Of a DNA stretch of 64,000 nucleotides, positions 34,734 to 63,768 are shown piece by piece. Below the pieces are notes generated by a model. The model worked only from the letters and a program-made list of their open reading frames with translations, did no database searches and had not been told where the DNA came from. Position 1 is the stretch's first letter; each line of letters begins with the position of its first letter. Made by a program: the position numbers and the translations under genes. Origin of the DNA: Kineococcus siccus. Its GTDB lineage: Bacteria > Actinomycetota > Actinomycetes > Actinomycetales > Kineococcaceae. The stretch covers positions 1-64,000 of the forward strand of contig NZ_JAAALN010000001.1 of the NCBI RefSeq assembly GCF_009906795.1. The letters run 5' to 3'.

Positions 34734-36128
34734 TCATTCGCCCTCGGGCCCCCACCTGTCCAGGGCTGTCGTGAAGCTGTCGTTCCAGAGGCTGAGGTGC
34801 GGCCAGACCGCCGCGACCCACTGGGTCGCCTCCTGTGGCGAGAGGCCTTCCTCCCGCATGGCCCATGCCCGCAGCACCAGCCCGGTGCGCGAGGCGCCGG
34901 CGTGGCAGTGCACGAGCACCCGCCGGCCGTCGGCGCGGAGGGCGGCGATGTCGTCCAGGACGTCGTCGAGGACGGTGACGAGCACGGGGTTGCTGTCGTC
35001 GTCGGTGAGGTAGGCGAAGCGCTGCACGTCGTGGCCGAAGCGTCCGCCGGTGCGGCACAGCGAGACGACGGCGAAGTCGCGGTCGCTGCGGCGCGCGCCG
35101 TCCAGGTCCGCCGCCCACACGCCGGGGGTGACCTCGACGGCCTTCTGGCCGCGGGTGGGCGGCGGCTCGTGGAGGCGGACACCGCGGTTCCCGTCCAGAC
35201 GTGCGGCCAGCAGCTGCAGGTCGCGCAGCTCCCATACCTCCGGCCCGAAGCCCGGAATGCGGCCGTGGACGACGGACGTCCAGCGGATCGGGATGCCGGT
35301 GATGCCCGCCCGGGCGCCGGCGAGCGCGCCGGTGACGCAGGCGACCGTGTCGGTGTCCCCGCCGAGGTCGACGACCAGGCGCAGCGCCTCCTCGAACGTG
35401 GTCGAGTGCCGGAGCGCCCACAGCGCCGACCCGAGCGTCGGCCAGACGGCGCCGTTGGCCTCGGCCGCGTCCTCCGGTCGCCACTCCGGCGCGCACACCT
35501 GCGCCCACTTCGCCCGGTGCGGCTCCGCCACGAGCGGCAGCGCCGCAGCCACGGCCTCGTCGGCGTCTCCGCCGTCCAGGAGCACGCGCAGCACCTCGTG
35601 AAAGAGCGCGCACCCCTCCCCGGCCGCGGGATCGCCGTGGGTGAGGGCGCTGATGCGCCGGGCGGCGTCCATCGTCGCCTCCCGCCCGGCGCTCGCGAAG
35701 AAGATCGCCGCCGGGGTGGTGCGCATGAGCGACCCGTTGCCGGCGGCCCGGTTCCCGGCGCGCACGTGCTCAGCCGCGGCGGTGTCCCAGGGCAGTCCCG
35801 ACTGCAGCACCGCGCGGGTCTGGATGCCGATGTCCGGCGGGTCCGCTTCCGCCCAGCGCCGGAAGCGGTCGAAGACGTCGGCCTCGTCGAGGTCGTCGCG
35901 CTCCACGAGCGACTGCCCCACCAGCAGCGCCATCTGCGTGTCGTCGGTGAACTCGCCCAGCTCCCAGTCCAGGGTGCCGCCGCCGCACATCTCGGTGGCG
36001 ACGCCGCGGGCGGAGGTTGGGAAGCGGCCGCAGAAAGCGTCCGGCGGACCGAACTCGAACGGCGCGCCCAGGGCGTCGCCGACGGCCGAGCCCACGAGGG
36101 CGCCCATCACGCGGTGCAGTCGGTCCAC
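34734..36128 (-). CDS. ADP-ribosylglycohydrolase fused to a dual-specificity phosphatase
   Basis: 464 aa. Residues 1-300 are a DraG/ADP-ribosylglycohydrolase: GALVGSAVGDALGAPFEFG, LGEFTDDTQMALLVG (metal Asp pair) and VVDLGGDTDTVACVTGALAG (second metal site). Residues 335-455 are a protein-tyrosine/dual-specificity phosphatase domain with VLVHCHAGASRTGLVLRAW; the Cys is about residue 408 and the Arg about 414. The fusion links removal of ADP-ribose with dephosphorylation. Divergent from the DUF4143 ATPase across a 95-bp gap with 23-bp repeats. Confidence 0.9.
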   Translation of the reverse strand: MDRLHRVMGALVGSAVGDALGAPFEFGPPDAFCGRFPTSARGVATEMCGGGTLDWELGEFTDDTQMALLVGQSLVERDDLDEADVFDRFRRWAEADPPDIGIQTRAVLQSGLPWDTAAAEHVRAGNRAAGNGSLMRTTPAAIFFASAGREATMDAARRISALTHGDPAAGEGCALFHEVLRVLLDGGDADEAVAAALPLVAEPHRAKWAQVCAPEWRPEDAAEANGAVWPTLGSALWALRHSTTFEEALRLVVDLGGDTDTVACVTGALAGARAGITGIPIRWTSVVHGRIPGFGPEVWELRDLQLLAARLDGNRGVRLHEPPPTRGQKAVEVTPGVWAADLDGARRSDRDFAVVSLCRTGGRFGHDVQRFAYLTDDDSNPVLVTVLDDVLDDIAALRADGRRVLVHCHAGASRTGLVLRAWAMREEGLSPQEATQWVAAVWPHLSLWNDSFTTALDRWGPEGE

Positions 36129-36160: not shown

Positions 36161-36229
36161 GACGGTAGCGCCGAACGGCGCCAAACAGTAGCGTCTGAAT
36201 CCGCCAAAAGGTAGCCTAGGTGGGTGCCC
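36161..36229. repeat. Three 23-bp units with GTAGC in register
   Basis: GTAGC occurs at 36165, 36188 and 36211, exactly 23 bases apart, each in a unit ending GCC(A/C). The third unit contains TAGCCT (36212-36217), a good leaderless -10 for the GTG at 36224. Two helical turns between sites suits cooperative binding by a regulator. CAGACG/CGTCTG arms also flank the first unit. Confidence 0.5.
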
Positions 36230-37504
36230 AGTCCGCCGCCGTACGCGGCCCGCGTCGTCGATGCAGAGCTGCAGGAGTACCTGGCCGGCCTGGCTGCAGT
36301 CGCTCTGGAGGGCGCGAAGGGCGTCGGCAAGACGCGGACGGCGCTGCAGCACGCCCGCACTGTCGTCCAGCTCGACGACCCCGCGCAGCGAGACCTCGTC
36401 GTCGCGGACCCGAACCGGGCGCTGCGCGGGCCGACGCCCGTCCTCGTCGACGAGTGGCAGCACGTCCCGTCCACCTGGGACGCCGTGCGACGCGCCGTGG
36501 ACGCCGGTGCCGCACCGGGGTCGTACCTGCTCGCACGATCAGCCGTGCCTCGAGACCCCGGTGTGCACAGCGGGGCCGGCCGGATCGTGCGCCTGCGCAT
36601 GAGGCCTATGACCCTCGCCGAGCGCGGCGTCGGCCGACCGACGGTCTCCCTCGCGGACCTGCTGACCGGTCGACGGCCCGCTGTCGCCGGCACCACGACC
36701 GTCGGGCTGGACCAGTACGCCGACGAGATCTGCCGCTCCGGTTTGCCGGCGATCCGTGCGCTGACACCACGGCTGCGCCGGGCCCAGCTCGACGGGTACG
36801 TCGACGCGATCATCGACCGTGACTTCCCCGACCTCGGCCGCGCGGTCCGCAACCCCGCAGCGTTGCGCCGGTGGATGGCCGCCTACGCCGCCGCGGAGTC
36901 GACCACGACCGCGTACGACCGGCTGCTCGAGGCCGCCACCCCCGGCGACGTCGACAAGCCCGCGAAGACCACGACCACCGCCTACCGCGACATCCTCGAA
37001 CGCCTGTGGTTCCTCGACCCTGTTCCGGCGTGGACCCCGTCCCGCAACCACCTGGCCCGCCTCGGTGCCGCCCCCAAGCACCACCTCGCCGACCCGGCCT
37101 TCGCCGCCCGGCTGCTCGGAGTCGATGCCGACTCCCTCCTCGGTGCGGCACCCTCCCGCGGGGCCGGCCGGGAGGCGACGCTGCTCGGGCAGCTGTTCGA
37201 GTCGCTCGTCACCCTCGACGTCCGCGTCCACGCCCAGGCCGCCGAGGCCCGCACGGGTCACCTGCGTCTGCGGGGCGGCGACCACGAGGTCGACCTCGTG
37301 GTGGAACGGGGCGACGGAAAGGTCGTCGCCATCGAGGTGAAGCTCGCCGGCACGGTCACCGACGCGGACGCGAAGCACCTGCACTGGCTGCAAGAGACGC
37401 TCGGCGACGACGTGCTCGACGCGGTGGTGGTCACGTCGGGGGCGGACGCCTACCGGCGGCGGGACGGGATCGCTGTTGTGCCGGCGGCGCTGCTCGGGCC
37501 CTGA
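36224..37504 (+). CDS. AAA ATPase with DUF4143 and nuclease-like C-terminus
   Basis: 426 aa from a likely leaderless GTG. Walker A VALEGAKGVGKTRTALQ near residue 30, Walker B PVLVDEWQHVP near 75. The middle DUF4143 part shows GLDQYADEICRSGLPAIRAL, IIDRDFPDLGRAVRNPAALR and ERLWFLDPVPAWTP. The C-terminus (HEVDLVVERGDGKVVAIEVK) looks like a PD-(D/E)XK core. The sensor stretch reads YLLARSAVPRD where family members usually have LTGSA, so function may be altered. Such genes are common, mobile and of unclear role. Confidence 0.82.
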   Translation: MPSPPPYAARVVDAELQEYLAGLAAVALEGAKGVGKTRTALQHARTVVQLDDPAQRDLVVADPNRALRGPTPVLVDEWQHVPSTWDAVRRAVDAGAAPGSYLLARSAVPRDPGVHSGAGRIVRLRMRPMTLAERGVGRPTVSLADLLTGRRPAVAGTTTVGLDQYADEICRSGLPAIRALTPRLRRAQLDGYVDAIIDRDFPDLGRAVRNPAALRRWMAAYAAAESTTTAYDRLLEAATPGDVDKPAKTTTTAYRDILERLWFLDPVPAWTPSRNHLARLGAAPKHHLADPAFAARLLGVDADSLLGAAPSRGAGREATLLGQLFESLVTLDVRVHAQAAEARTGHLRLRGGDHEVDLVVERGDGKVVAIEVKLAGTVTDADAKHLHWLQETLGDDVLDAVVVTSGADAYRRRDGIAVVPAALLGP

Positions 37505-38875: not shown

Positions 38876-38902
38876 GAGTCATCCCAGGTGACGGAGGATG
38901 GT

Positions 38903-41900
38903 GTGGGCAGCTCAGTGGACCTCTTCGACGGCTTCACAGAGCCCCAGCCGTTCACCCCTTCCGTCTTGCCGACGGCCCCCGAGGGCGCAGCGGTCCACGT
39001 CCTCCGGGACGCGGACGGGACGGTCGTCTACGTGGGCTCGACGGGCGCCCTCCGGCAGCGGCTGCGCCAGCACCTCTCTGGCGGTTCCGTCCTCCGCGAC
39101 CAGGTCCTCGCAGAGCTCGACCCGGCCGTCGAGTCGCTCCCGGAGACATTCGCGCGCCACACGATCGCCTGGCGCGAGGTGGACGACCCGGTCGCCGCGA
39201 AGGCTCGACTGCTCCAGCACCTGCGACCTCGCTACAACCGGCAGGCGAGGCAGAGCGGCACCACGTGGTGGGTCAACCAGGGCCAGGCCTACGCGGACGA
39301 GTCGAGGCTCGGCGTCGTCTTCGCCGGCCTCGTGGGCAACGCTGTCGCTCACCACCTCGACGTCGCTCGGATGGCCCTCGGGGACACCGTCGTGCACTAC
39401 CGGCGGGGTCACGTCGTCGCGCTCGGGGAGGTCGTCGCCGCGCCCGTGCAAGCCCGCCGCCCCTACGGACCTGTGGGCGGACGTGACCACGGGTGGCTGG
39501 TGCGCGTCGAGTACTTCCCCCTCGCGGAGGGGCTTCCGCTGGCCTCCTTGCCCGTCCGGTCGACGAGCGACGGTCCGTTCGACGTCAACGGGAACGTCAA
39601 GCAGGGCTACCTGTTCCGCCTCAGCGACGGCTACGCCGAAGACCTGCAGGCCCTCGTGACGTGGCCGGCGGGATCACCGTGGGCTGACGGCGAGCGGAAG
39701 CTGTGGATGTTCCAGGCGAACCCGAAGCAGTGGGACCTGGCAGCGAAGCTGCCGGACATGCCGCCGGGGCACGTGGAGGACTGGACCGTCACCCGCTACC
39801 GCACGGAGATGCGCCCCGGTGACGGAGTCCTGCTGTGGGCGTCCGGACCCGAGGGAGGCATCCACCTCGTGGGCCGCCTGACGTCCGAGCCCCAGCAGAG
39901 TCCCACCCCCGACTTCCGGCCGGCCGACGCGGATCCGAACGAGTACCGCGTCGACTTCCGCGTGGTGCGACACGTGGTGCCGCACATCACCCGCACCCTC
40001 GCCAAGAATACCCCGGAGCTCGCCGACCTGGCCGTCCTCAAGCTGGCCAACGCCACCAACTTCCGCGTCACCCCGCGTCAGTGGCGGGCCGTGCACGCCC
40101 TCATCCCGCTCGGGGACGGTCCGGAGACCACCGGCTGGACGTCCCTGCTGCACTGGGCCGAGCGCTTCGCTCAGACGGTGGACCTGGACGCCGACCGCCG
40201 AGGCCCGTTGGCCACGGCTGAGCTCCTCGCCATGACGCGGACGGCACTCGCCGACGGGGACTGGCGGACGACGCTCTCGACGGCACTCGGGACCAGCGAG
40301 CTCGACGGTCAGGTCACCGACGAGCTGAGGACGTGGCTGGCGGCCGACGCGCCCTCTGTGCGTCGGGCGCTGGACGCCCTCTGGGCCGACGGTGACGTCG
40401 AGGCCGGGATCACGACCTTCGCGCAGCTCGCACCGTCGACCATGTCGGCCTCCAGCTCGTGCGCGGTCCTGGCGTCCTTCCTGCTCGGTGCACGGGACGT
40501 CACGCGCTACCCGCTGCACCAGCTCCGAATGCTCGAGAAGGCGTACGCCCTCGTCGAGTGGCCGCACGAGCGCAGCCTCGACCCGGCGGTGCTGTACACG
40601 CAGGGGCTCGAGTTCCTCGACGAGTTCCGGGACCGGCTCCAGAGCACGGCGGCGCGAGAACTGCGGGACCGCCTCGACGCAGACGTGCTGCTGCGCCGTG
40701 TGCTGTCGGGGAAGGCGCTGCAGACGTGGAGCCAGCAGGACAAGGACGCGTACGCGCGGTTCGTCGGAGGGAGCGGCATGGATGACCTGGCGGACCTGGT
40801 GGCTCTCTTCCGGCGGGAGCGGGGGTACCCCACGGAGATCGACGTCCAGCGGGGCGTCGAGAGGGCGGAGCTCGCGGTCGCCCTGACTACGGAGGCCCTC
40901 ACCGACCTCAACGTCCCCGTGTTGCACCGTCTCGCCGGCCCCGCTTACGGGTCACCGGGACCGCAGCCCGGCTTCAACGCCCTCCTGAGCGACGACGTGG
41001 GCCGCGCTCAGGTGGCGCGCACGCTGCTGCACCTCCTGCACGGGGACGGTCCCCTCGTCGACCGGCTGGCCGACTGCCTCCAGGGTGGGTACAAGCTGCT
41101 CCGGGTCGGCGAGGCCGTCCTGGTCAAGGCGCTGGCGGTCGCTCAGCCCCAGGCGTGGTTCCCCGGCTACGTGTCCCGCGGGGAGGCGGGGAAGCTCGCC
41201 GTGCTGGATCTGCTGGGTCGTCCTGATTCCCGTGCGGGCTCGCAGGCCGAGGTCGCCGTGCGCACCAACGAGACCATCAGGCGGTTGTTGGAACCCCACT
41301 TCGCCGACGACTCGTGGGCGATGCAGGCCTTCTCCTGGTGGCTGCTGCACCGCGAGCACGTGCCGGAGTCGTCGCTGGCGACGTTGGCCGACGAGCTCTA
41401 CCTGACCGAGGAGTTCCTCGCAGAGAGCGTCGAGCTGCTCGAGGACAAGGGGCAGGTAGTGTTCTACGGTCCGCCCGGGACGGGCAAGACCTTCGTCGCT
41501 CGTCGGCTGGCCGGTCACCTGGCGCGCGGGGGCGGGCTGGTCGAGAAGGTGCAGTTCCACCCGTCCTACGCCTACGAGGACTTCATCGAGGGGTACCGGC
41601 CACGCCTGTCCGACGGCGGTCAGGTCACCTACGAGGTCGTCGACGGCCCGCTGAAGAAGATCGCTGCGCAGGCCAACGAACGTCCGGACGTGACGCACGT
41701 CCTGCTCATCGACGAGCTGAACCGCGGCAACGTCGCGAAGATCCTCGGCGAACTGCTGTTCCTGCTGGAGTACCGCGACGAGGAGATCCGGCTGCAGTAC
41801 TCCGAGACGCCCTTCGCGCTGCCGGTCAACCTGAAGATCATCGCGACGATGAACACGGCCGACCGGTCCATCGCGCTCGTCGACACGGCCCTGCGGCGAC

Positions 41901-42202
41901 GCTTCCACTTCGTGCCCTTCTTCCCCGACACCCCGCCGATCGACGGCGTGCTGCGGCGCTGGCTCGGCGACCACGCTCCGGAGCTCGTTTGGGTGGCTGA
42001 CGTCGTGGACCGGGCGAACGCCGAGCTCGCCGACCGCAACCTCGCCATCGGCCCTAGCCACTTCTTACGACCCGGTCTGACGGAGCAGGTGGTCGAGCGC
42101 GCGTGGCGCTACTCGGTGCTGCCCTTCCTGGAGGAGCACTTCTACGGCGACCCGACGGCGTTGGAGCGCTTCGCCCTGGACCGGCTCCGCTCGGGTGGGT
42201 GA
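38903..42202 (+). CDS. mcrB: GIY-YIG / EVE-like / EVE / McrB AAA+ fusion (modification-dependent restriction)
   Basis: About 1,099 aa. GTG 38903 is chosen because GGAGG precedes it by 5 bases; an in-frame GTG at 38888 is less well placed. Domains: GIY-YIG nuclease, residues 31-115 ([20 protein letters not shown], Arg pair at [13 protein letters not shown] end); an EVE-like reader, about 120-185 ([29 protein letters not shown]); a true EVE domain from about 266 ([27 protein letters not shown]); a long helical middle; and McrB AAA+ at about 852-1050 ([59 protein letters not shown]). Expected to sense modified DNA and drive McrC. The added N-terminal nuclease is unusual. Confidence 0.9.
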
Positions 42203-43433
42203 GCGGTTGCTGGTGCTGACGGAGCACCAGCTGAGCGATCCCGTCGAGCTGTCCGTCGCGGAGAGGGACGCGCTGCGGGACGTGGTCCCCGGCTTGTCCG
42301 TGGTGCCAGAGCCGGGTTCCACCGACCGCTACCGCCTCACGTGTGGGTCGACTGTCGGAGTCGTGCAGGTCGGGGACGTGATGCTCGAACTCCGGCCCAA
42401 GGTCGGTCTCGCGCCATTGCTGTTCATGCTGGCCTACCGAGCGTCGCCCGCGGACTGGCGGTCCGAGACGACGCTCGCGGCAGACACGACGATGAGCGAG
42501 GCGCTGGTCGAGCTCTTCGCCCGCTTCACCCGGAACGCGACCCGCGCCGGGCTGCTGCACTCCTACCGACGCCAGCAGGACGCGGCGACCACGGTGCGCG
42601 GTCGGGTGAGGATGACCGACCAGATGACGCGACGACGGGGGATGGCCCTGCCCGTCGAGGTGGAGTTCGACGAGTTCACTGCCGACATCTTGGAGAACCA
42701 GGTGCTCCGCACCGCGGTCGACGTGCTGCGCCGGCTGCGACTCCGCTCGCAGGGGTCTCGCCGCACCGTCGACCGGTTGCACCACCTCCTCCACGACATC
42801 TCGCCGCTCGCTGACACCCGGCGGGTCCCAACGCCCCTCTGGACCCGGTTGAACGTGCACTACCGACCGGCCTTCTCCCTCGCCGCGAGCCTGATCACCG
42901 GCGGACTCGAAGCGCGCGCCGGCGAACGCTTCGGTGCAGGCCTCCTGGTCGACATGAACGCGGTCTTCGAGGAGTTCGTGCGCGCGGCGCTGCGCGAGGC
43001 GATCGGCGCCAGCGAGAGAGAGTTCCCCGTCGGCAGTGCTGGACTGCGTCGGTGGCTCGACGTCGAGCACCGGGTGCCGCTGGAGCCCGACCTCACCTGG
43101 TGGCAGGACGGCCGCTGCGTGTTCGTCGGGGACTGCAAGTACAAGCGGACGACCGGCAGCATCCCCAACGCGGACGTCTACCAGATGCTCGCGTACCTGA
43201 CCGCGCACGACCTGGACGAGGGCTTGCTGATCTACGCGGCGGGGGAGGCGGACGTCGGAGACGTCCGCATCGCCGCGGCGGGGAAGACGGTGCGGGTACG
43301 GACGTTGGACGTGGCTGTTCGGCCTGGCGCGCTGCTCGAGGCCGTTGCCGTTCTCGCTCAGGCGGTGCGGCTGAGTGCCACTCAGGCTCATGAGGCGTCA
43401 CCCCCGGCGAGGTGGGCAGCTACGCTCCCGTAG
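42195..43433 (+). CDS. mcrC: McrC nuclease subunit
   Basis: 412 aa. GTG 42195 overlaps the McrB stop by 8 bases, so the pair is co-translated. The N-terminal half resembles the McrC adapter (VGDVMLELRPKVGLAPLLFM, SEALVELFARFTRNATRAGL, TVRGRVRM). The C-terminal PD-(D/E)XK nuclease core is intact: PDLTWWQDGRCVFVGDCKYK, then YQMLAYLTAHDLDEGLLIYA. Cuts DNA when McrB translocates or contacts a second site. Ends the operon; a 615-bp stretch with transposase debris follows. Confidence 0.9.
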   Translation: MGERLLVLTEHQLSDPVELSVAERDALRDVVPGLSVVPEPGSTDRYRLTCGSTVGVVQVGDVMLELRPKVGLAPLLFMLAYRASPADWRSETTLAADTTMSEALVELFARFTRNATRAGLLHSYRRQQDAATTVRGRVRMTDQMTRRRGMALPVEVEFDEFTADILENQVLRTAVDVLRRLRLRSQGSRRTVDRLHHLLHDISPLADTRRVPTPLWTRLNVHYRPAFSLAASLITGGLEARAGERFGAGLLVDMNAVFEEFVRAALREAIGASEREFPVGSAGLRRWLDVEHRVPLEPDLTWWQDGRCVFVGDCKYKRTTGSIPNADVYQMLAYLTAHDLDEGLLIYAAGEADVGDVRIAAAGKTVRVRTLDVAVRPGALLEAVAVLAQAVRLSATQAHEASPPARWAATLP

Positions 43434-44048: not shown

Positions 44049-45443
44049 TCACGAATCGACGCGCCCTGAAGGATGTGGTCGGGGTTCGTCGACCTGTGCT
44101 TCGTGTGCGCGCTTGCGCTGGAACAAGTGGCCAACAGCTCCTGCGACGTCGGTGGCAGCTAGCTTGACCGCCGCTCCGGCAGACTTCGCTGCTGCCGCTG
44201 CTCTTGTCCGGTCCGGGTCTTCGTCGCCGTCGAGGTCGAGGTCGAGGTCGACGGACCGGAAGACCCCGGTGGCGCGGTCGAAGGTTTGGTCGCCGAACCG
44301 CTTTGCAGCAACGGCTCCTTCGGCCGTTCCAACGCGAACCATTTCTAGTACTTCGCCCGCGGCCTGGCTCCAACGCTTTGCCCTTGTCGACTCGACGTCG
44401 GACTCGATTCCAAGCCGTCCACGGAGGCCGCGAACCTCGTCAGCGATCTGGTTGCTCGACTCGACGGCGGCGGGTGAGTCGAACGGGTTGGTGAGCACCT
44501 TAGCGTTGGCCTTGTGCACGGTCGCGTCCATCTGCGCCAGCAGCGCGGCAGTGCTCCGCTCGATCCGCTCGAGACGGTTCTGGCGTGCCTTCAGCAGACC
44601 CGCGTGGTGGCTGTCGAGTTCCTCGGGCGAGGCGTCGAGTACGTGGTCGAGTTCGAGCACCGACACGCCCTCCTGGAGCTGAAACGTGCGCGCGAGGACC
44701 GCGAGCCACTCCCGCACCTTCGGCTCGGCCTCCTGTGTCGCTTTAGCGATCTTGCCGACATCGGCCTTCCTCTGAAGCTTTTCGGCAATCGCGTCCAGCT
44801 CACGCAGCGCATACGCCTGCGTTCGAGCGAGCGTCTGTGAGGTGGCCTGCACCTTCGACCAGGTGATTTGCGACACGCGGCCGACCTCGTCGCGGACGAT
44901 CAGCGCGTCTTCAATCGTCAAGTCCACGCCGATCATGTCAGCGAGCACAGCATCCTTCTGCCCACGGAGGACGTCAGTGACCTTCTCATCGATGAGTTCG
45001 AGGTACTCGACGATCTCGTCCATCTGCTGCTGCATCGCGTACTGCGACATGACTGCTCCGACCCCAGCGAGCACTGCGGGGTTGGTGAGCATCGTTCCCG
45101 ATCTCGTGACGACCTGCAGAATGTGTTGCGTGCTGCCCTTGTTGTTCACCGCGATGGCCCGCGAGACGCCCTCGGTAGCCCCTTTCATCAGCTGCAGGTC
45201 CCTCATGGCCCGCGCCGACTCCTCGGTCAGCTTCACCCATCGCCCAGCGTTCGTCGCGACGGTTTCGCCTGCCTCGGCGACTCCGCCGCCGGTCTTCGTC
45301 GCTGCTCGAACTCGACGGAGGTCGAGAGTCTTCGAGGGAAGCTTGTCGATCCCGGATGACAGGAAGAACCGCTCGACATCGTCCGCCGCGCCGATGACTG
45401 CGAGGCCGCTGCCATCGCTGATCAGTTCGAGTTCACGGCTCAT
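44049..45443 (-). CDS. Unknown coiled-coil protein, low G+C (464 aa)
   Basis: ATG 45443 has GGAG upstream and starts MSRELELISDGSGLAVIGAA; a longer open frame upstream is not protein-like. The region around residues 130-155 (TNPAVLAGVGAVMSQYAMQQ) is hydrophobic and may insert in or touch a membrane. Residues 155-400 are mostly charged helix, probably coiled coil (ALRELDAIAEKLQRKADVGK, LLKARQNRLERIERSTAALL). An acidic VDLDLDLDGDEDPDRT and Ala-rich tail end it. G+C is visibly lower than its neighbours. No known domain recognised; location between two restriction/defence loci suggests an accessory or effector role. Confidence 0.7.
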   Translation of the reverse strand: MSRELELISDGSGLAVIGAADDVERFFLSSGIDKLPSKTLDLRRVRAATKTGGGVAEAGETVATNAGRWVKLTEESARAMRDLQLMKGATEGVSRAIAVNNKGSTQHILQVVTRSGTMLTNPAVLAGVGAVMSQYAMQQQMDEIVEYLELIDEKVTDVLRGQKDAVLADMIGVDLTIEDALIVRDEVGRVSQITWSKVQATSQTLARTQAYALRELDAIAEKLQRKADVGKIAKATQEAEPKVREWLAVLARTFQLQEGVSVLELDHVLDASPEELDSHHAGLLKARQNRLERIERSTAALLAQMDATVHKANAKVLTNPFDSPAAVESSNQIADEVRGLRGRLGIESDVESTRAKRWSQAAGEVLEMVRVGTAEGAVAAKRFGDQTFDRATGVFRSVDLDLDLDGDEDPDRTRAAAAAKSAGAAVKLAATDVAGAVGHLFQRKRAHEAQVDEPRPHPSGRVDS

Positions 45444-45946
45444 CGCTCTCCTCAAGCTGCGCGGGCGTTCGTCGCCCTTCGGGGTGCTTCTACGGGAACG
45501 ATACCTTCGGGCGCCGACGTTGGGGGCGATCACGAGATGCTCTTGAGACACGCCGAGCGGACACGCTTTACATGGTCGCGGGAGTCGGCGTGGGCAGAGG
45601 CTTCGCGGAGAGACCGACGCGCAGGATTTCGTCGCCTTCAAGGCGCGTTGAAACGGATATAGAGGACACCACGGAGAACGGCGCTCGCTTGGTCGGGGCC
45701 GCCTCGACCGGTGTGATGTCGAGAGCGGTGGCGAACGCCGCCGACGTGCTCGCGTACTCAGATCGGACCGGCACCAGCGACGGACCGACCGAGGCCATCG
45801 GCTGTCGACTGGAGCACCTGCACGGGTCGCCGCTCGGGTTCGGATGAAGACGGAGTGCATCGCCCGGTCCAGCTCGAGGCCGGAAGATGCAGACCCTAGC
45901 TACACCCTCGTTCGTGAAGAGCCAAAATGGTCAGTCTCCACGGACA
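45444..45946. other. 503-bp gap with one doubtful small frame
   Basis: Upstream region of the coiled-coil protein (its promoter should lie at the left end) and downstream region of the DUF3427 helicase. A 76-codon leftward frame (45568-45798, ending LEGDEILRVGLSAKPLP) is the only plausible coding piece; it lacks a ribosome site and any recognisable family, so I do not call it a gene. Confidence 0.5.
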
Positions 45947-48900
45947 TCAGCTGGCGTTGACCAGGGCGGCTTCTGCGAAGAAGTCCGTTGGCATCGAGTG
46001 GTGCAGCCGCCAGGTGATGCCGATGGGCCGTTCGCCCTCGTGCGACACGTAGTCGGCTGGCCCGAGGAACAGGTAGGGCTCGGCGCCCATGTCGCCCTGC
46101 TTGCGCTGCCGCGCGAAGAGGAGGACGTGCGTGCCGAGCGTCCGGTGGTTGAGGTAGCGCTGCCCGGTGGCGGACGCCACGGTCGTGCGCGACTGCGACT
46201 CCCAGTGGAAGAGTTCCCGCGTGAGCGGGTAGTCGCGGTACATGGTTGTGGGCGAGTAGTCGGCTTCCGACTTGGCCAGCGTGACGAGGAGGGCGTCGGT
46301 CCGCCGCTCGGGCGCCCAGACGACTCCCTCGCGGAAGGACACCGGCGGCCGCGCCGGGGTGGCCACACCGAGTGCGCTGACGATCTCGTCGCGGGAGTAG
46401 CGCGCGTGGACGCTGAGCGGCAGGTCGGCGCGGTCACCCGTGAGGGCGGTCGTCGGGTGGCGGGCGGCATCGAAGGCGATCTCGACGAGCTGACTCAGCT
46501 CGTCCCGCACCGCGGCCTCTCGCCGCAGGACGTCCAGGACGGTCGGCAGGTCGCCCGGTGCGCCCGATGGCCAGAGGGAGCTCGTGAGCATGCCGGCGAG
46601 GTGGCGTTCGACAGGGGAGAGCGCATCGGGACTGACGTCGTCGGTGAGCATTCGGCGGTAGGCGTCGTGGCGGGCGCGGTCGTCGACGTGGGTGACGGCA
46701 CGGACCCGCCTCAGCAGGGTGGTCTCGAGGGGTCCAGTCGGACGCTCCTCCACGCCGGCGCGTCGCCGCAGGTCCGTCCACGAGCGGTTGGTGCCGAGGA
46801 GTTCGCGCACGCTCAGGCCGCTCTCGTCGAGGAAGTCGGCGATGCGGTTCGCGCCCCTCGCCCGGACCTCGGCCAGGATGGCGCGCGCTCGCGGGCTGAG
46901 CTGGCGCTGGATGCTGGCGAGGACGCGCTGCTGCACCACCTCGTCGAGCACGATCGAGCACCCGGCGGGGAGGAAGGGGAAGCCCTGCTCCGCCTGGTGC
47001 TGTAGGTTGCCGCGGCTCGCGCCCGTGAGGGCGCGGAACCGGGTGTCGAAGCGGAAGTCGGCGTTCTGATGGCCGACGAAGTCCAGGGCTGTCAGCACCG
47101 GCTTGCCGGGCGCCGTCCGCAGCCCACGCCCGAGCTGCTGCAGGAACACGGTGGAGGACTCGGTCGGTCGCAGGAAGAGGACGGTGTCCACCTGGGGGAC
47201 GTCGACGCCCTCGTTGTAGAGGTCGACGGCGAAGACGATGCGGACCTCGCCGTCTCTCAGCCGACGCAGGGCCGCGGCGCGTTCCTCGGGTGTGCTGCTC
47301 CCGCTGACGGCCAGCGCGTCGATGCCCGCGTCGCGGAAGACCCGGGCCATGTAGCGGGCGTGCTCGACGCTGACGCAGAAGCCGATGGCTCGCATGGTGC
47401 GGACGTCGCTCACCCGGCGGCGCAGCTCGCGCAGCACGAGGCGGGCGCGGGCGTCGTCGCCGGTGTAGAGGTTGGTCAGCCCTTCGACGGCGTACCCGCC
47501 GCGGCGCCACGTGAGGTCGCGGAGATCCGTACCGTCGTCGACCGCGAAGTAGTGGAACGGTACGAGCAGGTCGTCCGCCAACGCGTCCCACAGGCGCAGT
47601 TCGGCCGCTGTGCGACCACCGAAGACGGCCAACACGTCCTGCCCGTCGGCGCGCTCCGGCGTCGCCGTCAGGCCCAGCAGCTCGATCGGCTGGAGCCGCC
47701 CGAGGATCCGCTGGTAGCTGCTCGCGCTGGCGTGGTGGCACTCGTCGAGCACCACGACGTCGTACCGGTGGGGGTCCAAGGCTTCGACCACGTCGGCGCT
47801 CAGCGACTGCACGCTCGCGAAGACGTGCGTGCCCCTCCGCGGGCGCTCGCCTCCGACGAGCAGCTCACCGAAGGCGCCGTCTCCCAGCACCTCACGGTAG
47901 GTGCGGCGCGCCTGCTCGAGGAGTTCGCGACGGTGCGCGACGAACAGCAGCGTGAGGTCCCGGCCGTGCTGCTCGCGCAGCTGTCGGTAGTCGAACGCGG
48001 CGAGGACGGTCTTGCCGGTGCCGGTGGCAGCGACGACCAGGTTGCGGTGGCGGTCGTGCAGCTGGCGCTCGCCGGCGAGCTGCTCGAGCATCTCCTGCTG
48101 GTGAGGGCGAGGGGTGACCTCCAGGCCCGAGAGGTCGACGGGTGTGCCGGGACCGCGCTGGCCACCCGCGTCGGCGAGCGCCGCGTCCAACCGCTCGCCG
48201 TCGCGTGCGGGCACGTACGTCTCGAACGAGCTGCTGGCCCAGTAGCTGGCGAAGGTCGCGTCGAACTTCGCCAGCAACGCCGGGTTGGCCACGGCGGAGA
48301 GCCGGACGTTCCACTCCAGGCCGTCCAGCAACGCTGAGCGCGAGAGGTTGGACGACCCGACGTACGCGGTGCTGAACCCGGTCTCTCGGTGGACCACCCA
48401 CGCCTTGCCGTGCAGTCTGGTCCGCGTCGTCTCGTAGATGACCTTGACGTCGGCGCCGAAGTCGTTGACCAGGGCGTCCACGGCCCGGCGCTCCGTCGCT
48501 CCCATGTACGTCGTCGTGATGACACGGAAGGGGACGCCGCGGTCCCTCAAGTCCGTGAGAGCCCGCTCCAGCAGCTGCATCCCGGACCACTTCACGAAGG
48601 CGCACAGCAAGTCGACGCGGTCCGCACTGGCCAGCTCGGCGCGCAGCTCCGCCGCGAGGCTCGGGTCGGCTGAGCTGTTGGTCAGCAGGGCCGCCTCGGA
48701 CAGGGGAGTCGCGGGTCGAGTGGTCGCCGGCTGCGCGAGGGCGCGTGCCCGGTGGGCTGACAAGAGCTGTCGAGGCGCATCGGCTGTGTCGGCCATCGGC
48801 ATCGCTCGCGACTCCCCTAGGGCGTCGAGAACACCGCGCACGAGCGCGAGGCGCTCGGAGCGGTCCGTCGTCGCTTCCAGCGACCGCTGAACCAGGGCGC

Positions 48901-49054
48901 TGACGTGCCGAGCCAAGACGTGCGGCGCATCCGCGTCATCAACGCTGCTGACGACCGTCGTCCAGTCCTGTGCGCTGGCAAGCGCAGCTGCGAGGTCTTC
49001 CGCGATGAGGACTTCGTGCAGGCCTTCAACGAGTCTCACGTCTTCCGTGCTCAC
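45947..49054 (-). CDS. PLD nuclease / SF2 helicase / DUF3427 defence protein
   Basis: 1,035 aa. An N-terminal helical region leads to a phospholipase-D-type nuclease, about residues 110-260 (LLCAFVKWSGMQLLERALTD, RTRLHGKAWVVHR with HxK, AYVGSSNLSRSAL). Then comes an SF2 helicase: VVAATGTGKTVLAAFDYRQL, VVLDECHHASASSYQRIL, LLGLTATPERADG and QQLGRGLRTAPGKPVL. The last 250 residues are DUF3427 (HYDR-type fold; FREGVVWAPERRTDALLVTL, YRDYPLTRELFHWESQSRTT). This architecture is widespread in defence islands and is thought to cut incoming DNA. GTG start at 49054. No partner gene is needed in known cases. Confidence 0.88.
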   Translation of the reverse strand: MSTEDVRLVEGLHEVLIAEDLAAALASAQDWTTVVSSVDDADAPHVLARHVSALVQRSLEATTDRSERLALVRGVLDALGESRAMPMADTADAPRQLLSAHRARALAQPATTRPATPLSEAALLTNSSADPSLAAELRAELASADRVDLLCAFVKWSGMQLLERALTDLRDRGVPFRVITTTYMGATERRAVDALVNDFGADVKVIYETTRTRLHGKAWVVHRETGFSTAYVGSSNLSRSALLDGLEWNVRLSAVANPALLAKFDATFASYWASSSFETYVPARDGERLDAALADAGGQRGPGTPVDLSGLEVTPRPHQQEMLEQLAGERQLHDRHRNLVVAATGTGKTVLAAFDYRQLREQHGRDLTLLFVAHRRELLEQARRTYREVLGDGAFGELLVGGERPRRGTHVFASVQSLSADVVEALDPHRYDVVVLDECHHASASSYQRILGRLQPIELLGLTATPERADGQDVLAVFGGRTAAELRLWDALADDLLVPFHYFAVDDGTDLRDLTWRRGGYAVEGLTNLYTGDDARARLVLRELRRRVSDVRTMRAIGFCVSVEHARYMARVFRDAGIDALAVSGSSTPEERAAALRRLRDGEVRIVFAVDLYNEGVDVPQVDTVLFLRPTESSTVFLQQLGRGLRTAPGKPVLTALDFVGHQNADFRFDTRFRALTGASRGNLQHQAEQGFPFLPAGCSIVLDEVVQQRVLASIQRQLSPRARAILAEVRARGANRIADFLDESGLSVRELLGTNRSWTDLRRRAGVEERPTGPLETTLLRRVRAVTHVDDRARHDAYRRMLTDDVSPDALSPVERHLAGMLTSSLWPSGAPGDLPTVLDVLRREAAVRDELSQLVEIAFDAARHPTTALTGDRADLPLSVHARYSRDEIVSALGVATPARPPVSFREGVVWAPERRTDALLVTLAKSEADYSPTTMYRDYPLTRELFHWESQSRTTVASATGQRYLNHRTLGTHVLLFARQRKQGDMGAEPYLFLGPADYVSHEGERPIGITWRLHHSMPTDFFAEAALVNAS

Positions 49055-50552: not shown

Positions 50553-51262
50553 TCACGCCAGTTTGTGCGACACCGGAAGCTCGTCGAGGTCGAGCTGTAC
50601 CGCGTCCCTGCGGTGGCCCATCCACAGAGCGACGTCGAGGACCCGCAGGGCGGAGACGCGAAAGTGCAGGTCGGCTTCTGCGGCGAGACGACGGAGCGCG
50701 ACTGATAGTGCTGGGTCCTGAAACTCCTCCCACATGGTCAGCCAGAAGCGGTTGCGGGACCACCCCAAGGCGGCCCTGACCACGCCGTCGTGGACCGGGA
50801 TCAAGGCGGGCCGCTTCGAGCGAGCAGCTTGCCGGCGGTCACGGAACCGACGCCCTTCAACTCCTGCACAGTCCTCCAGAAATCGGCGGCCGCCCCATCG
50901 TCCGACACGACGAGGACCTCGGAACCAGCCAGGTCGACGCCAACGGGGATCTGGGGGAGCAGCGCAGCGAGCCTCCGCCCGACGGGACCGTCCACCAGGT
51001 CCAGCGCCGCCGGCGCGGGAATCGCGACGCTCAACGCGCCGACCGCGAGGACGTCGACGGCCGTGATGACGTCGGCGACCGCTGGGCGATCACCGCCGCC
51101 GTCGATGGCCTCGAACCACCCGCCGGTGACGGGGGGCATCTCGTCGGCTGGTCGTCCGACGCCGAAGTAGGTCTTGAGGTCTTGCACGACTGACGGACGG
51201 TCGAGCCAAGCGTGCAGGTCGGCTCCGCGCAGGGGCGTTGTCGTGCTGGGCACCAGAGTCAC
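50553..51262 (-). pseudogene. DUF6308 family gene split by a one-base deletion
   Basis: The first frame (GTG 51262) runs to GVGSVTAGKLLARSGPP and stops at 50801. The second frame carries the rest: LIPVHDGVVRAALGW, then HFRVSALRVLDVALWMGHRR. Adding one base between 50816 and 50819 joins them as GKLLARKRPALIPVHD, the expected family sequence. The start overlaps the AddA-like stop in a GTGA, so it is the tail gene of the big defence operon. Either a real loss of function or an assembly indel. Confidence 0.72.
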
Positions 51263-54200
51263 TCCTCAGAGGTGGGACGGGCGAAGACGAGGTGGGTCTC
51301 GGGACGGCGTCCGAGGACGCGCTCCACCGCGTCGGCGTAGGCGGACAGCTGCGGTCGGTAGAGCTCTCGCTTGGCGGCCATCTCCGCGGCGGTGACGGCC
51401 CTGTCGGTCTTCCAGTCCACCACCACCAGACGGCCGTCGTCGGTCTCCGCAAGCAGGTCGATGTAGCCCTCGACGTACCGCGTGCCGTCGTCGACGACGA
51501 GGTACACCTCTCGCCACGACGACTCCGGTGTGAGGTGCTGGGCCACGTCAGAGGCCAGTGCGGTCCGCACACGACCGGCGACGTCGGTGACCAGGTCCGG
51601 AATGCCCTGCGCTAGGCACGCCGCAAGCGCCAGTGCCTGCAGCTCCTCCTCCGCGGGTGTCGGAAGGGTGGCGAGCTCGAGGACCCGGTGCACGGCGGTA
51701 CCGATGGCCGCGCCGCGGCCACCACGGCGAGTAGACCCCCTCGACCGCTGTGGAGCGGTCAGCGGGACGTCCACCGGAACGGTCGACTCGTCGGAGCTTG
51801 CTCGTTCCCGCGCCAGCGCTGTGGGGCTGGTCGCCACTCGCGCGGCGAGGTCAGCGAGCAGCTGGGCGCGGTCGCGCGAGAAGGCGTCGCGGTCGGGGAT
51901 CGACCACGTGGTCACGGGCTCGAGCAGAGGGTCGGTGGCCGAGGGGGGCGGGGCTGCCTCCGTGCGGACCAGGCCGGCCGGCGACAACAGCTCCCACAGG
52001 CGCTGTGCAGCACTGGTCTTGCTCGACTTCGTCTTCGGGGGCCGGTAGTAGCAACCGATGACGAGATGGTCCATGGCCCGGGTGAGCGCGACGTACAGGA
52101 GACGCGTTGCTTCCCGTGCGCGTTCGGCGTCCTCGGTGGTGGTGGCGTCCGGCCAGCCGGCCATCTCGAGGACGTCGGCCTTGAAGCGGACGAGCGGCCC
52201 GGTGTCCGCCCAGAGCACGCTGTCCGTGCGGCGGCCGGAGCTGCTGAGGCCAGCTACCACCGTGATCGGGAACTCGAGCCCCTTGGACCCGTGGACCGTG
52301 AGTATGCGCACCGCGTCGTCGTCGGCCTCGGGGACCACCGTCTCGAGCAGGTCAGCGTCGCTCTCCGTCTGCTGGACGGCCCACGCGACGAACCCGCTCA
52401 GCCCGGCGCCACCGGCGTCGCACCAGGCTCGTGCCTGGTCGACGACGAAGCGGAGCCGACGCCAGTGGTCACGCGGTCGTGGCTGAGACGCCGTCAGCTC
52501 AACGAGGCGCAGCTCGCGCACGACCTCGTCGACGAGGTGGTTGACGGGGATCCACCAACGGCGCTCGTGCCAGCCGCGCAAGAGCTGCAAGGCCGATGCG
52601 ACGGGGTGCTCGGTGGTCAGCTCGTCGGGAGTGCGCGCGAACAGCGACCACCGCCCACCGGCGGCCCGCCACTCGAGGAGGTCGACGTCCGAGCACGCGA
52701 GCCCCGGCTGCCGCAGCGCCGCGAGCAGCGCGACCTCGTCGGCGGGGGAGTCGATCGCCTGCAGGAGCGTCACGAGGTTGCGGACGGCCTCGGTCGACCA
52801 CACGAGACTGCGGCTCTCGATCCGGTACGGAACACCCCGAGCGTCCAGCGCCCGCTGCAGCGCGGGCAGCGTCGTCCGGGTGGGGAGCAGGACCGCGACG
52901 TCCGAGAAGGTCGCGGGTCGCCCGTCGCCCACGAGCCACCCCTCGGCCTTCGCCCGCACGATGACGTCGGCGATGTGTTCGGTCTCCTGCTGCCGCAGTG
53001 TGGCTGCCCCGGCGCCAGGGTGCGGGCCACCGAGGAGCAGGACCGGAGGCTGGTCGGCGACCACGGCCGCGCGGGCGGGGTGCAGCCGCGAGTAAGGCAT
53101 GCCGGCGCCCGGGTCGGAGCCGATCAGCTCGTCGAAGGCGTGGTTGGCTGCGGCCAGCACTCCGGGCACGCTGCGGAAGTTGACGGTCAGTCCGCTGCGG
53201 CCGGAGTCGTGCTCGTCGCCGACCGCCGCAAAGGTCGCGACATCGGCCCGGCGGAAGCGGTAGATGGACTGCTTGGCGTCGCCGACGAAGAACAGGCGAC
53301 CGTCCGGGATGGGAATCTGCGACCAGTGCGTCGGAGGGGCCGCGCCGCAGTCCCCCGCGATGAGGCAGGCGATCTCGATCTGCAGCGGGTCCGTGTCCTG
53401 GAACTCGTCGATCATGAGCACGGGCCACGCCGCGTGGAGCTTCTCCCGGACTGACCGCTCCGCGCGCAACAGGTCCCGCGCGTGCACCAGGAGGTCGTGG
53501 TAGTCGAGCGCCCCTTCGGTTCGTCGGCGCGTCGACTGCTCGAGCACCCAGTCCTGCAGGCGGGCCGCGAGTGTCTCGGTGACCGCCGCCCCTACGGCAC
53601 CGAGCAGGGCCAGCCGCTCGTCTTCAGCGCGTGTCAGCGCGTCGATGACGCGGCCCTTGTCGAGACCGGCGGCCGTCCAGGCAGCCTTGTTGCCGACGTT
53701 CTTCAGCACCTTCTCGGTCAGCAGGTCGAGGACGTCGGCTTCCTCGCGGGCGTGCTCGAGAGCGTCGAGCAGGGGGACGATCCACTCCTGCAGGAAGTCC
53801 GTCAGACGGTCGCCGGCGGGCCACGCCGGGGCGTCCTGCACGGCGCGGCGCAGGTGGCCCGTGATGGACGACGCGTCGACCCTCGGCATGGGCCGCGCTC
53901 GCAGCGGACGTGTCACCAGCCGGTCCCACGACTGCGACAGTGCGGTCGCGACTTCGCGCAGCTTGTCGAGGGAGAGGCCGAGCGTGAGGCCGGCGACGAC
54001 GTGCCGCTGCAGCGTCTCGTCAGCGAGCAGGTCGGAGAGGGCGTCCTGCCAGTCCTCGGCGACGAGGTCGTGCCCGCCCGCGGCGGTAGCGATCGTGAAG
54101 GTCGGTGGGAGGCCTGCCTCCAGCGGTGCCTCGCCGAGGATACGGGTAGCCCACCCGTGCAACGTCGCGATCACAGCGTCGTCGAGGTGGTCCAGCGCGC

Positions 54201-54495
54201 TCCGGCACCGCGCTCGTTGTGCGTCGTCGTACGCGGCGCCGCGGTGCGCCCCGCGCGCACCGTCCTCGAGGCCCTCCCGGATGCGGCTGCGCAGCTCTGC
54301 CGCCGCGTTCTCGGTGAAGGTGATGGCTGCCAGTCCGTCGATGGACGTCAAGTGCGCGGTGGCGACCATGTCGACGACGCGAGCGACCAGGGCCGTCGTC
54401 TTCCCCGTGCCTGCACCGGCCTCGACGAAGAGGGTGTTTGTGTGGGCAGTGCGGATGCGGTTCCGGTCTGCTTGGTCGGCGAAGGGGGTACTCAC
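51259..54495 (-). CDS. UvrD/AddA-like helicase-nuclease
   Basis: 1,078 aa from GTG 54495. SF1A helicase: Walker A VEAGAGTGKTTALVARVVDM at about 24-43, VLMIDEFQDTDPLQIEIACL, VGDAKQSIYRFRRADV, ILTVHGSKGLEFPITVVAGL and LLYVALTRAMDHLVIG. A C-terminal RecB-type PD-(D/E)XK nuclease is intact: GAAIGTAVHRVLELA, then YVEGYIDLLAETDDGRLVVV and DWKTDRA. It is like AddA of AddAB recombination nucleases, but is co-translated with an AddB-like nuclease inside a defence operon, so a private, non-housekeeping pair is likely. Confidence 0.88.
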   Translation of the reverse strand: MSTPFADQADRNRIRTAHTNTLFVEAGAGTGKTTALVARVVDMVATAHLTSIDGLAAITFTENAAAELRSRIREGLEDGARGAHRGAAYDDAQRARCRSALDHLDDAVIATLHGWATRILGEAPLEAGLPPTFTIATAAGGHDLVAEDWQDALSDLLADETLQRHVVAGLTLGLSLDKLREVATALSQSWDRLVTRPLRARPMPRVDASSITGHLRRAVQDAPAWPAGDRLTDFLQEWIVPLLDALEHAREEADVLDLLTEKVLKNVGNKAAWTAAGLDKGRVIDALTRAEDERLALLGAVGAAVTETLAARLQDWVLEQSTRRRTEGALDYHDLLVHARDLLRAERSVREKLHAAWPVLMIDEFQDTDPLQIEIACLIAGDCGAAPPTHWSQIPIPDGRLFFVGDAKQSIYRFRRADVATFAAVGDEHDSGRSGLTVNFRSVPGVLAAANHAFDELIGSDPGAGMPYSRLHPARAAVVADQPPVLLLGGPHPGAGAATLRQQETEHIADVIVRAKAEGWLVGDGRPATFSDVAVLLPTRTTLPALQRALDARGVPYRIESRSLVWSTEAVRNLVTLLQAIDSPADEVALLAALRQPGLACSDVDLLEWRAAGGRWSLFARTPDELTTEHPVASALQLLRGWHERRWWIPVNHLVDEVVRELRLVELTASQPRPRDHWRRLRFVVDQARAWCDAGGAGLSGFVAWAVQQTESDADLLETVVPEADDDAVRILTVHGSKGLEFPITVVAGLSSSGRRTDSVLWADTGPLVRFKADVLEMAGWPDATTTEDAERAREATRLLYVALTRAMDHLVIGCYYRPPKTKSSKTSAAQRLWELLSPAGLVRTEAAPPPSATDPLLEPVTTWSIPDRDAFSRDRAQLLADLAARVATSPTALARERASSDESTVPVDVPLTAPQRSRGSTRRGGRGAAIGTAVHRVLELATLPTPAEEELQALALAACLAQGIPDLVTDVAGRVRTALASDVAQHLTPESSWREVYLVVDDGTRYVEGYIDLLAETDDGRLVVVDWKTDRAVTAAEMAAKRELYRPQLSAYADAVERVLGRRPETHLVFARPTSEE

Positions 54496-57400
54496 GCCTC
54501 CTCCTCCGTGCCGACGAGACGGCGGTACTCGGCGACCGCGGGGCTCTCGCGCGCCGCGCGCCACTGCTCCCCCCGGGTGTCGGGGCACACCCGGTCGAAC
54601 GCGCAGTAGCGGCACGCGTCCCACCCGCGGCTGTCGTCCGGTTTGCCGGGGTTGGCGGGGAAGATCCCCAAACGGATGCCGGAGACGGAGACCTCGAGGG
54701 CGTCCGTGAGCCGCTCGACCGCGGCGTCGTCGATCGCCGATCCGACCTCGACGCCCCCGCGCTCCACCAGCGAGAAGTAACCCTCGACAGGTGTCCGATC
54801 TGATCCGAACCGAGCTCGAGAGGCGAGGGCGTACAGCGGGAGCTGCAGCATGCGTCCCCGGTCGACGACGTCTGGCGCCGCCTCGCCGCTGCCCCGCACC
54901 GGCAGGTCGGCGTACTTCGCCGCCTTCCCGGCCTTGTAGTCGAGGACCACCAGTCCGCCGTCGATGGTGGCGTCGACCCGGTCGACGAAGCCCGCGAAGG
55001 TGACCGGACCCTGCGTCGGCAGGTACACCTCGAGGTCGGGGTGACCATCGCGGCCGAACGGCATCTCCAGGGCGATGGGCCACGAACCGTTGCGGCGGCG
55101 GGACTCGCTGTCGGCCTGCAGCGCTGCGGTGAGCGCTCGCCGCAGCCGGGACCGTTCCACGGACCAGACGGCGGCGTGACGACCCGCGAGGCCCTCGGCG
55201 ACGAAGCCGGCAACGCGGTCTTCGAAGATGCGCAGGAGGTCGTCGAGGTCGGCGTCGGACCAGGCCTCCCCCGGGTCACGGCCGGGCCGCTCCGTGTCTC
55301 CGAGGTGATCCGACAGGAACTGCTCGAGGACGGCGTGCACCAGGGTCCCGCGCTCCCGGGGGTCCACCCCGTCCCGGGCACCGACGTCCTCGACGTCGCG
55401 GATCCCCAGCACGTACTGGAACAGGTGCCGGGTGGGGCAGGTCGCCCACTCCTGGAGGGCGCTCGCCGAGTGGCGCTGGTCGATCTCCGTGCGCACGACC
55501 GCTGGCAGTGCGCCTACGCCTCCTGTCCACTCCCCGAAGGTGCCGCGCGCTCGGGTGCGGGCGGCGCGCAGACCACGGCGCAGACGGTGGTCGTGGGAAG
55601 CCAGGACGTCGACGCCGCCGCGCACCGCGATGGCGACGTCCAGCTCGTGCGGGGAGGCGAAGACTCCGGTGCGGAGCAGGGCGTCGGTGGACGAGTCGTA
55701 CGTCGTGAGCCAGTCGGCGGTGAGGGCCGTGAGGTCTTCCATCGACACCCGTCGGCCGGCCAGCCGCTCAGCTTCCTCGAGGAACCAGGGCGAGGGGAAC
55801 TGACGACGTTGGGAGCGGGTGTTGGCTCGTGCCGTGGACAGGTGCACGTGCCGTGCCGCGCCGAGTGCTGCGACCCAGGCATCTCGCGCGTCCGCACGAC
55901 GGGAGGCCACTGTGGCGAGGTGCGGTGACAGGAGCTCGCGATCGGCGTCTCGTAGGACGGGGTGTTCGCGTTGCCGGGCGGGCGCCGCGTCCTCGGTGAG
56001 CCCCACGACGACCAGCAGGTCGAGCTCCGCTCCGGTGAAGTCAGCGATGGAGCCCACGAGGATGCCTCGGCCGAGGGTCGTGGTGCCGGGCACGGAGGCG
56101 CGGAGCTCGTCGGCGACGACGTCCGCGACCGAGGCCGGGGTCGGTGGAGCTGACGTGCGGTCCAGCTCGGCGAGGTCTGTGAGCGCCCGGGTCACGTCGG
56201 TGTGCGCCTGCTGCTCGCGCTCGACCACCGCGTCGAGGTCGGCAGAGGTGCTCCGCGACCAGCCGTCCACCACCGTCGGCTCACCCAGGCACTGCCGGAG
56301 CAGGGCGAGCAAGCCGTTCGACACGTCGGTCCACGTCGTTGCCGTGAGGGCCGCGTCGGCGAGCCCAGCGATCGCCTCCACGGTGTCGCCGAGGCTCGCC
56401 GCGTCGGCCAGTCGCCGGTCGCGGGCCTCTCGAGCAGCCCCGTCGGTGGTGTCGTGGGCCGCTTGTTTGCGGCTCCAGCGGTCCAGCCGCAACCGCCAGG
56501 TGTCCAGCCCGCGGGAGACGCCGGCTTCTCGGGAGATCTGCTCCCACCGCCACGACGGCACCGGCTCCCCGTCCGCCGTCCTCATCGGCGCCGCGGAGAG
56601 CCACGTCAGCGTGTCAGCGCGGGGGTACCCGCGACGGTGCAGCTGAAGAGCGGACAGCAGGGTGCGGCCCGCGAGGGTCTCGTCCAGGCGACGCCGCACC
56701 GCGACGTGGTGCGGAAGGCCAGCGGCGCTGAGCTGCTCGGCGAGCATCCGGGCGTACGGCACCTCGGTGCTGAAGGCGATCCCGAGGCGCTCCGGCCGCA
56801 CGGGGTGCCGTTCGAGGTGGTCGACCACGCGGCGCACCGCCGTGCGCACCTCCTCCTCCGCGTCCGGGGCCACGGTGAGGTGGACGTCGACGGTCGTCGG
56901 GGACGCCTCCCGCGGCACGCGGTGGAGGTGACCGGCGGCGCTGAGCTCCTCCAGGAGTTCACGTTCGGCGGCGTTGACCGGCTCGTCGGTGGCCAGGAGC
57001 ACCCGCACCGGCAGGTCGGTGCCCGCTCTGACCGCTGCTGCCGCCGCCCGCAGCAGCTCCGGAGGGGTGAGCGCACCGCCGAGGTGGTGGCGGTAGTCCG
57101 CGTACAGGTCGAGGACGTCCCCGGCGCGTGGAGAGAGATCGGTCGGGCGGTGAAGGGGGTCGACGTCCGCCCGGTCGAGCTCGCCCACCAGCCTCTCGAG
57201 CAGCCGGGCGCCGGCGAGGTCGTCGGCCATGGTCGTGACTGAGCTGGGGGAGGAGGTGGCGAGGGCGCGGCGCAGGGCCTCGCATCGGCGGCCTGGTGTC
57301 ACCAGTGAGCGTGGGCCGGCGAGATCCAGAGCCAAGTGAAGGGCGGCCAGCTGCTCGGCGAGCTGGCTGACGGACCCGAACCGGACGTTGGCGAGACCGG

Positions 57401-57539: not shown

Positions 57540-57626
57540 CGGACCGTAGTCAGACGGTTGCAATCTGTCGATGCGGCGCCCATCGCTACGTCCTTCGGGC
57601 CGGGCAACTTGTGAAGGCGACGGACC

Positions 57627-63579: not shown

Positions 63580-63768
63580 CTCAAGGCGACCGCACCCCCC
63601 GCCGATCCTCCCCAGGTGCCCCGGCGGCCCTCGGCGGTGACCGCGAGGGCGTACCGCCACCTCAGGCTTCTGAGACGCGTCGAGCCGCGTTCGCCAGCCC
63701 CACCACTTCGTCTCGTCCGTTCCGGTCAGCTGCCCGACGGTGCGGACCGTGACCCCAGGAGAGCTCCA

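Follow-up and report, generated by a model that had tools for sequence, protein, structure and literature searches.

Can a single McrB-like protein bring two types of nuclease into one restriction complex? This question is raised by a locus in a 64,000-nucleotide stretch of the Kineococcus siccus genome, which was analyzed as a whole and is referred to here as the window. The original prediction described a four-part McrB consisting of a GIY-YIG nuclease, an EVE-like reader, an EVE reader, and an AAA+ motor, encoded next to a normal McrC, and it proposed that the GIY-YIG domain either adds a second nuclease activity or has become a DNA-binding module. According to the main text of Bell et al. 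2020 (PMC7641849), EVE-McrB is the most common EVE fusion in defense, present in nearly 300 genera and frequently with extra domains, and GIY-YIG-EVE fusions exist as well.

A single gene encodes the four-part McrB and is coupled to mcrC

The mcrB-like gene is open on the plus strand from a GTG at 38903 to 42202 and encodes a protein (P0001) of 1,099 amino acids plus stop. A well-spaced Shine-Dalgarno sequence, GGAGG (38893 to 38897), lies five bases upstream of the GTG, and the GC3 is 90 to 93% in every domain or segment. Because the Shine-Dalgarno sequence is well placed and the GC3 is this high in all segments, the reading frame represents a single genuine gene. A gene prediction or frameshift artifact was ruled out by the even GC3 and by the identical domain order in a sister species (G006). 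Minus-strand open reading frames across the gene, with no homology support among the matches examined, were taken for shadow frames such as GC-rich coding sequence produces. The predicted layout proved to be real, with a GIY-YIG fold, two readers, and an AAA+ motor in the order proposed.

The motor and its partner are those of a McrBC system. The McrB AAA+ motor occupies residues 830 to 1090 (41390 to 42172, plus strand), in which Pfam detected AAA_5 at residues 852 to 1001 (E = 2.4e-20). It matched solved McrB structures (E = 2e-43), and its motifs are intact: Walker A GPPGTGKT, Walker B LLIDELNR, and the signature MNTADRS (NxxD). The motor is preceded by a helical middle (residues 400 to 829; 40100 to 41389, plus strand) which from residue 628 onward is common to the McrB at L003 (genome G058); that protein is 45% identical to P0001 over 628 to 1100 and has a different N terminus. 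The gene that follows, mcrC (412 amino acids; 42195 to 43433, plus strand), starts with an 8-nt overlap with the mcrB stop and belongs to the McrBC family (Pfam, E = 9e-49). Its nuclease motif, PD ... DCK (PD-(D/E)xK), is present, so the expected normal McrC was indeed found, coupled to mcrB and with an intact motif. The locus thus combines a McrB-type motor carrying Walker A, Walker B, and Nx(xx)D signature motifs with an adjacent mcrC carrying PD-(D/E)xK, as in type IV McrBC systems, and it has an EVE-family reader N-terminal to the motor, as in EVE-McrB, here in two copies.

By its gene content, the McrBC operon is located in a defense island. On the minus strand downstream, a 603-amino-acid frame (44049 to 45860) had no convincing family match and a GC3 of 74%, lower than that of its neighbors. 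It is followed by a PLDc-helicase-DUF3427 protein (45947 to 49054, minus strand), which PADLOC classes as a methyl-directed type IV enzyme (1080 bits); located 2.5 kb from McrBC, it is predicted to be another type IV system. Farther along, a UvrD helicase with PD-(D/E)XK and a neighboring PD-(D/E)XK protein (51259 to 57563, minus strand) form an AddAB-like pair beside the Shango genes (58225 to 63660, minus strand), which encode the SngC helicase (PADLOC, E = 3e-189), SngB (E = 3e-122), and a TerB_C protein. On the other side are an ADP-ribosylglycohydrolase fused to a dual-specificity phosphatase (34734 to 36128, minus strand) and an AAA_14-DUF4143 protein of the PADLOC candidate defense family PDC-S01 (36224 to 37504, plus strand; E = 1e-76).

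Two different EVE-family readers stand in tandem

Both tandem readers of the original prediction belong to the EVE family, the second by Pfam and the first by its matches to VcaM4I (6YEX). The first, domain B (residues 119 to 262; 39257 to 39688, plus strand), was not detected by Pfam. Its model, built with 12 sequences, had a pLDDT of 86, and the structure it matched first was 6YEX (E = 5e-11), with canonical EVE and YTH structures next. A domain B profile also matched 6YEX, with an E value of 3e-44 that was aided by close HNH-fused members in the profile. These matches of model and profile ruled out an unrelated fold, and the label "EVE-like" can be sharpened to a genuine VcaM4I-type EVE. 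Domains of this type precede HNH-like regions at L024, L025, L032, L037, L048, L049, L052, L054, and L110 to L112 (called as HNH_2 by Pfam in two of the three proteins scanned, the rest by eye) and an AAA domain at L045 and L046.

In VcaM4I, 5mC or 5hmC is flipped into a pocket formed by P24, W82, and Y130, and Q128 acts as the wedge (PMC7897488). Domain B keeps E133 (VcaM4I E15), Q234 (the wedge Q128), and Y236 (Y130), and it has Gly at the positions of P24 and W82, two of the three hydrophobic walls of the pocket. These two residues are also absent from the G006 copy and from a Deinococcus tandem described below; both are kept in single-reader proteins in which domain B is joined to AAA. Their replacement suggests a changed ligand; domain B may have changed its ligand or may have lost base recognition.

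The second reader is a canonical EVE domain (PF01878, residues 267 to 399, E = 3.4e-15; 39701 to 40099, plus strand) whose profile matched 2eve (E = 2e-7) and also 2gbs. Pocket residues noted for 2eve are W26 and Y82 (PMC7897488). In P0001, W26 is replaced by Pro and Y82 falls in a gap beside a Phe, so that neither aligned column is aromatic; the nearby Phe may stand in for the missing aromatic. For the aromatic pocket that the original prediction had asked about, the picture is mixed: the equivalents of Y130, Q128, and E15 are kept in domain B, those of P24 and W82 are lost, and the 2eve positions have no aromatic in the aligned columns.

The GIY-YIG fold has lost two catalytic residues

The N-terminal domain (residues 1 to 118; 38903 to 39256, plus strand) gave a weak, borderline Pfam match to GIY-YIG (E = 5e-4). 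A profile of P0001, the G006 copy, and one standalone relative matched UvrC in the PDB, both 1yd6 (E = 9e-6) and, nearly full length, 1ycz (E = 4e-4). The AlphaFold2 model, built with 21 sequences, was confident (mean pLDDT 87), and each of its nine best Foldseek matches was a GIY-YIG domain of UvrC (E = 1.1e-4 to 1.6e-3). Judged by profile and model, the domain is a GIY-YIG fold, and on this point structure prediction upheld the original assignment.

The active-site positions of UvrC are Tyr19, Tyr29, Arg39, Glu76, and Asn88. In the profile alignment with Thermotoga UvrC, three of these are kept in P0001, namely, Tyr43 (39029 to 39031; Tyr29), the catalytic Arg53 (39059 to 39061; Arg39), and Asn112 (39236 to 39238; Asn88), and all three are conserved across the subfamily. 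The other two are replaced: His32 (38996 to 38998) stands at Tyr19, the Tyr of the GIY motif, and Lys100 (39200 to 39202) stands at the metal-binding Glu76. A MAFFT alignment of 21 sequences placed Lys100 in the column where UvrC and the GIY-YIG domains of DEDD exonucleases have their Glu. Catalytic Arg and Glu had been named together as the residues to check in all homologues; the Glu was found to be lost and the Arg kept.

Both replacements were present in all 10 of the nearest relatives readable at both positions, i.e., the fused pseudogene of G006 and nine standalone proteins from Micromonospora, Dactylosporangium, and genome G577. The GIY-motif His was found in 11 of 11 readable near relatives, the additional one being a truncated standalone protein (L079) that shows the His only. 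As all 10 share both changes, loss of these two catalytic residues dates far back and has become fixed. The residue after the Lys is acidic in most standalone relatives, but the fused proteins have Ala there and L075 has Arg, so there is no conserved acidic residue beside the Lys, and a Glu shifted by one position was ruled out. The standalone GIY-YIG-like proteins of Micromonospora and Dactylosporangium (L071 to L079 and L069), in which Tyr-to-His and Glu-to-Lys are fixed, are about 125 amino acids long. A 338-amino-acid frame farther downstream on this contig, outside the window, contains another GIY-YIG match (E = 5e-5; G000:C111:70852-70983, minus strand).

These replacements make it very probable that the domain is not a nuclease. 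Most likely it is a module that binds DNA and does not cut; this fallback of the original prediction fits better than the two-nuclease reading. The basic run LRxRLRQ (residues 50 to 56) is invariant in the subfamily, which suggests that nucleic acid contact was retained. A purely structural or protein-protein module, serving to oligomerize or to bind McrC or a host factor and having no DNA role, would also account for the lost Glu, and the standalone relative L075, which lies amid nondefense genes such as a glyoxalase, indicates that use of the family is not tied to restriction. We consider this reading unlikely since the invariant basic run looks more like retained nucleic acid binding. Less likely still is a variant in which the fixed His and Lys mark a noncanonical active nuclease, or a domain that senses nicks or branches in DNA, and in which McrC cutting, with two readers, needs several signals at once.

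The proposal of two nuclease types in one complex fared worse. It would have the domain make nicks close to the modified base as McrC does its cutting, using an altered catalytic set with His32 in place of the Tyr and another metal ligand. The fold is intact and confidently modeled, Arg53, Tyr43, and Asn112 are conserved, and most standalone relatives have the acidic residue one position past the Lys. However, in the UvrC alignment the Lys occupies precisely the position of the metal-ligand Glu, all readable relatives have it there too, and the Ala and Arg found after it leave no conserved acid. GIY-YIG enzymes bind one metal, and their water is activated by a tyrosine, most likely that of the GIY motif (PMC11037411). 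CMoRE is a modification-dependent nuclease of the GIY-YIG type, and every single active-site change tested in it abolished nuclease activity in vitro (PMC12923530). An active second nuclease is therefore very improbable, and a domain that binds DNA and leaves the cutting to McrC is the preferred reading.

The full arrangement appears rare, but stacked readers recur

The search for other genomes with the same domain order yielded one more copy, in the sister species (G006:C25), which is a decayed pseudogene that carries a TAG stop and frameshifts and whose motor is truncated. Whole genomes, up to 400 per rank, were also searched, and no further fused GIY-YIG-McrB came up in these pattern- or sample-based searches. 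A single-sequence scan of genome contigs with residues 1 to 409 gave no match, and a scan with an alignment of the GIY-YIG part gave the nine standalone relatives, none of them fused. No relative of the GIY-YIG part was found in IMG/VR and none of residues 1 to 409 among named phages. In the literature, supplementary tables apart, we found no description of GIY-YIG fused to McrB. That only two copies were found, one of them a pseudogene, could mean a rare, recently acquired assembly that is decaying or dispensable and in which selection maintains none of the extra domains, but this is very improbable given that the copy in the window is fully open, its GC3 is even at about 90%, and the motifs of the motor and of McrC are intact.

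Stacked readers, on the other hand, are not unique to P0001, and multireader McrBs recur. A good example of this is WP_249395086.1 (L130:343-3867), a plasmid-encoded McrB of Deinococcus sp. QL22 with the same tandem of a VcaM4I-type EVE followed by an EVE, 35% identical to P0001 over the tandem. Its AAA+ is of another McrB clade (NVDE motif), it adjoins a DUF2357/PD-(D/E)xK McrC, and it showed no match to GIY-YIG. The N terminus of this protein gave a weak match to DUF4357 (E = 6.5e-4), one of the domains given as McrB aliases in the CoCoNuT paper. A second example is a 1,419-amino-acid McrB in another Actinomycetota genome (G752; L145:2562-6821), in which a VcaM4I-type EVE and an EVE are followed by a further domain, PUA-like by eye, and the neighboring gene is McrC-like in appearance. 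McrB front ends look like swappable cassettes, since the same EVE tandem occurs on two motor lineages and the L003 McrB has a similar motor behind another N terminus.

Proposed mechanism and comparison with known systems

Our best explanation, to which we assign a probability of roughly 0.64, is a type IV modification-dependent McrBC system with two stacked base-flipping readers, a pseudonuclease GIY-YIG domain, and McrC as the sole cutter. McrB subunits would form a hexamer and probe DNA for a presumed modified base, using one after the other two EVE-family readers of different types that flip bases. The N-terminal GIY-YIG fold, its catalysis lost, would add a DNA contact. Finally, NTP-driven translocation by the AAA+ ring would lead to cutting by McrC, the single active nuclease. 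Counting against this explanation are the altered reader pockets, with P24 and W82 missing from domain B and the 2eve aromatics unmatched at the aligned columns of the canonical EVE, and also the conserved GIY-YIG Tyr, Arg, and Asn, which go beyond what a mere scaffold would require.

P0001 resembles the EVE-McrB systems of PMC7641849 in having an EVE reader fused to a McrB GTPase with a McrC partner, and it differs from them as described there in its two different EVE-family readers per chain and its N-terminal GIY-YIG fold; the main text of that paper contains no description of the four-part layout. Its domain B is of the same type as the EVE of the EVE-HNH endonuclease VcaM4I (PMC7897488, 6YEX), with equivalents of the wedge Gln, E15, and Y130, but it is fused to McrB rather than HNH, and P24 and W82 are replaced. 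With the UvrC N-terminal GIY-YIG domain (1YCZ, 1YD6), P0001 shares the fold and the equivalents of Tyr29, Arg39, and Asn88, whereas Lys for Glu76 and His for Tyr19 predict that it is inactive. The CMoRE and wH-GIY-YIG modification-dependent nucleases (PMC12923530, PMC11037411) likewise combine a GIY-YIG fold and a modification sensor on one chain; in those enzymes the GIY-YIG site is active and a motor is absent, whereas P0001 has an AAA+ motor, a McrC partner, and a degenerate site. PD-(D/E)XK-wH-NTPase fusions (PMC11037411) also join a nuclease fold and a reader to a McrB-like NTPase, although both the nuclease fold and the reader differ. A parallel in its readers, WP_249395086.1, has the EVE tandem beside McrC but lacks a GIY-YIG match and carries the AAA+ of the other clade.

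These comparisons have several implications. First, a repair-nuclease fold can apparently ride on a restriction motor after loss of its active site. Second, the finding draws attention to GIY-YIG-like proteins that form a small family in actinomycetes and in which the Tyr-to-His and Glu-to-Lys changes are fixed. Third, stacked readers raise the question of whether they form an AND gate for two modifications or widen the target range. Finally, one EVE tandem on two McrB motor lineages suggests that McrB front ends are built from interchangeable cassettes.
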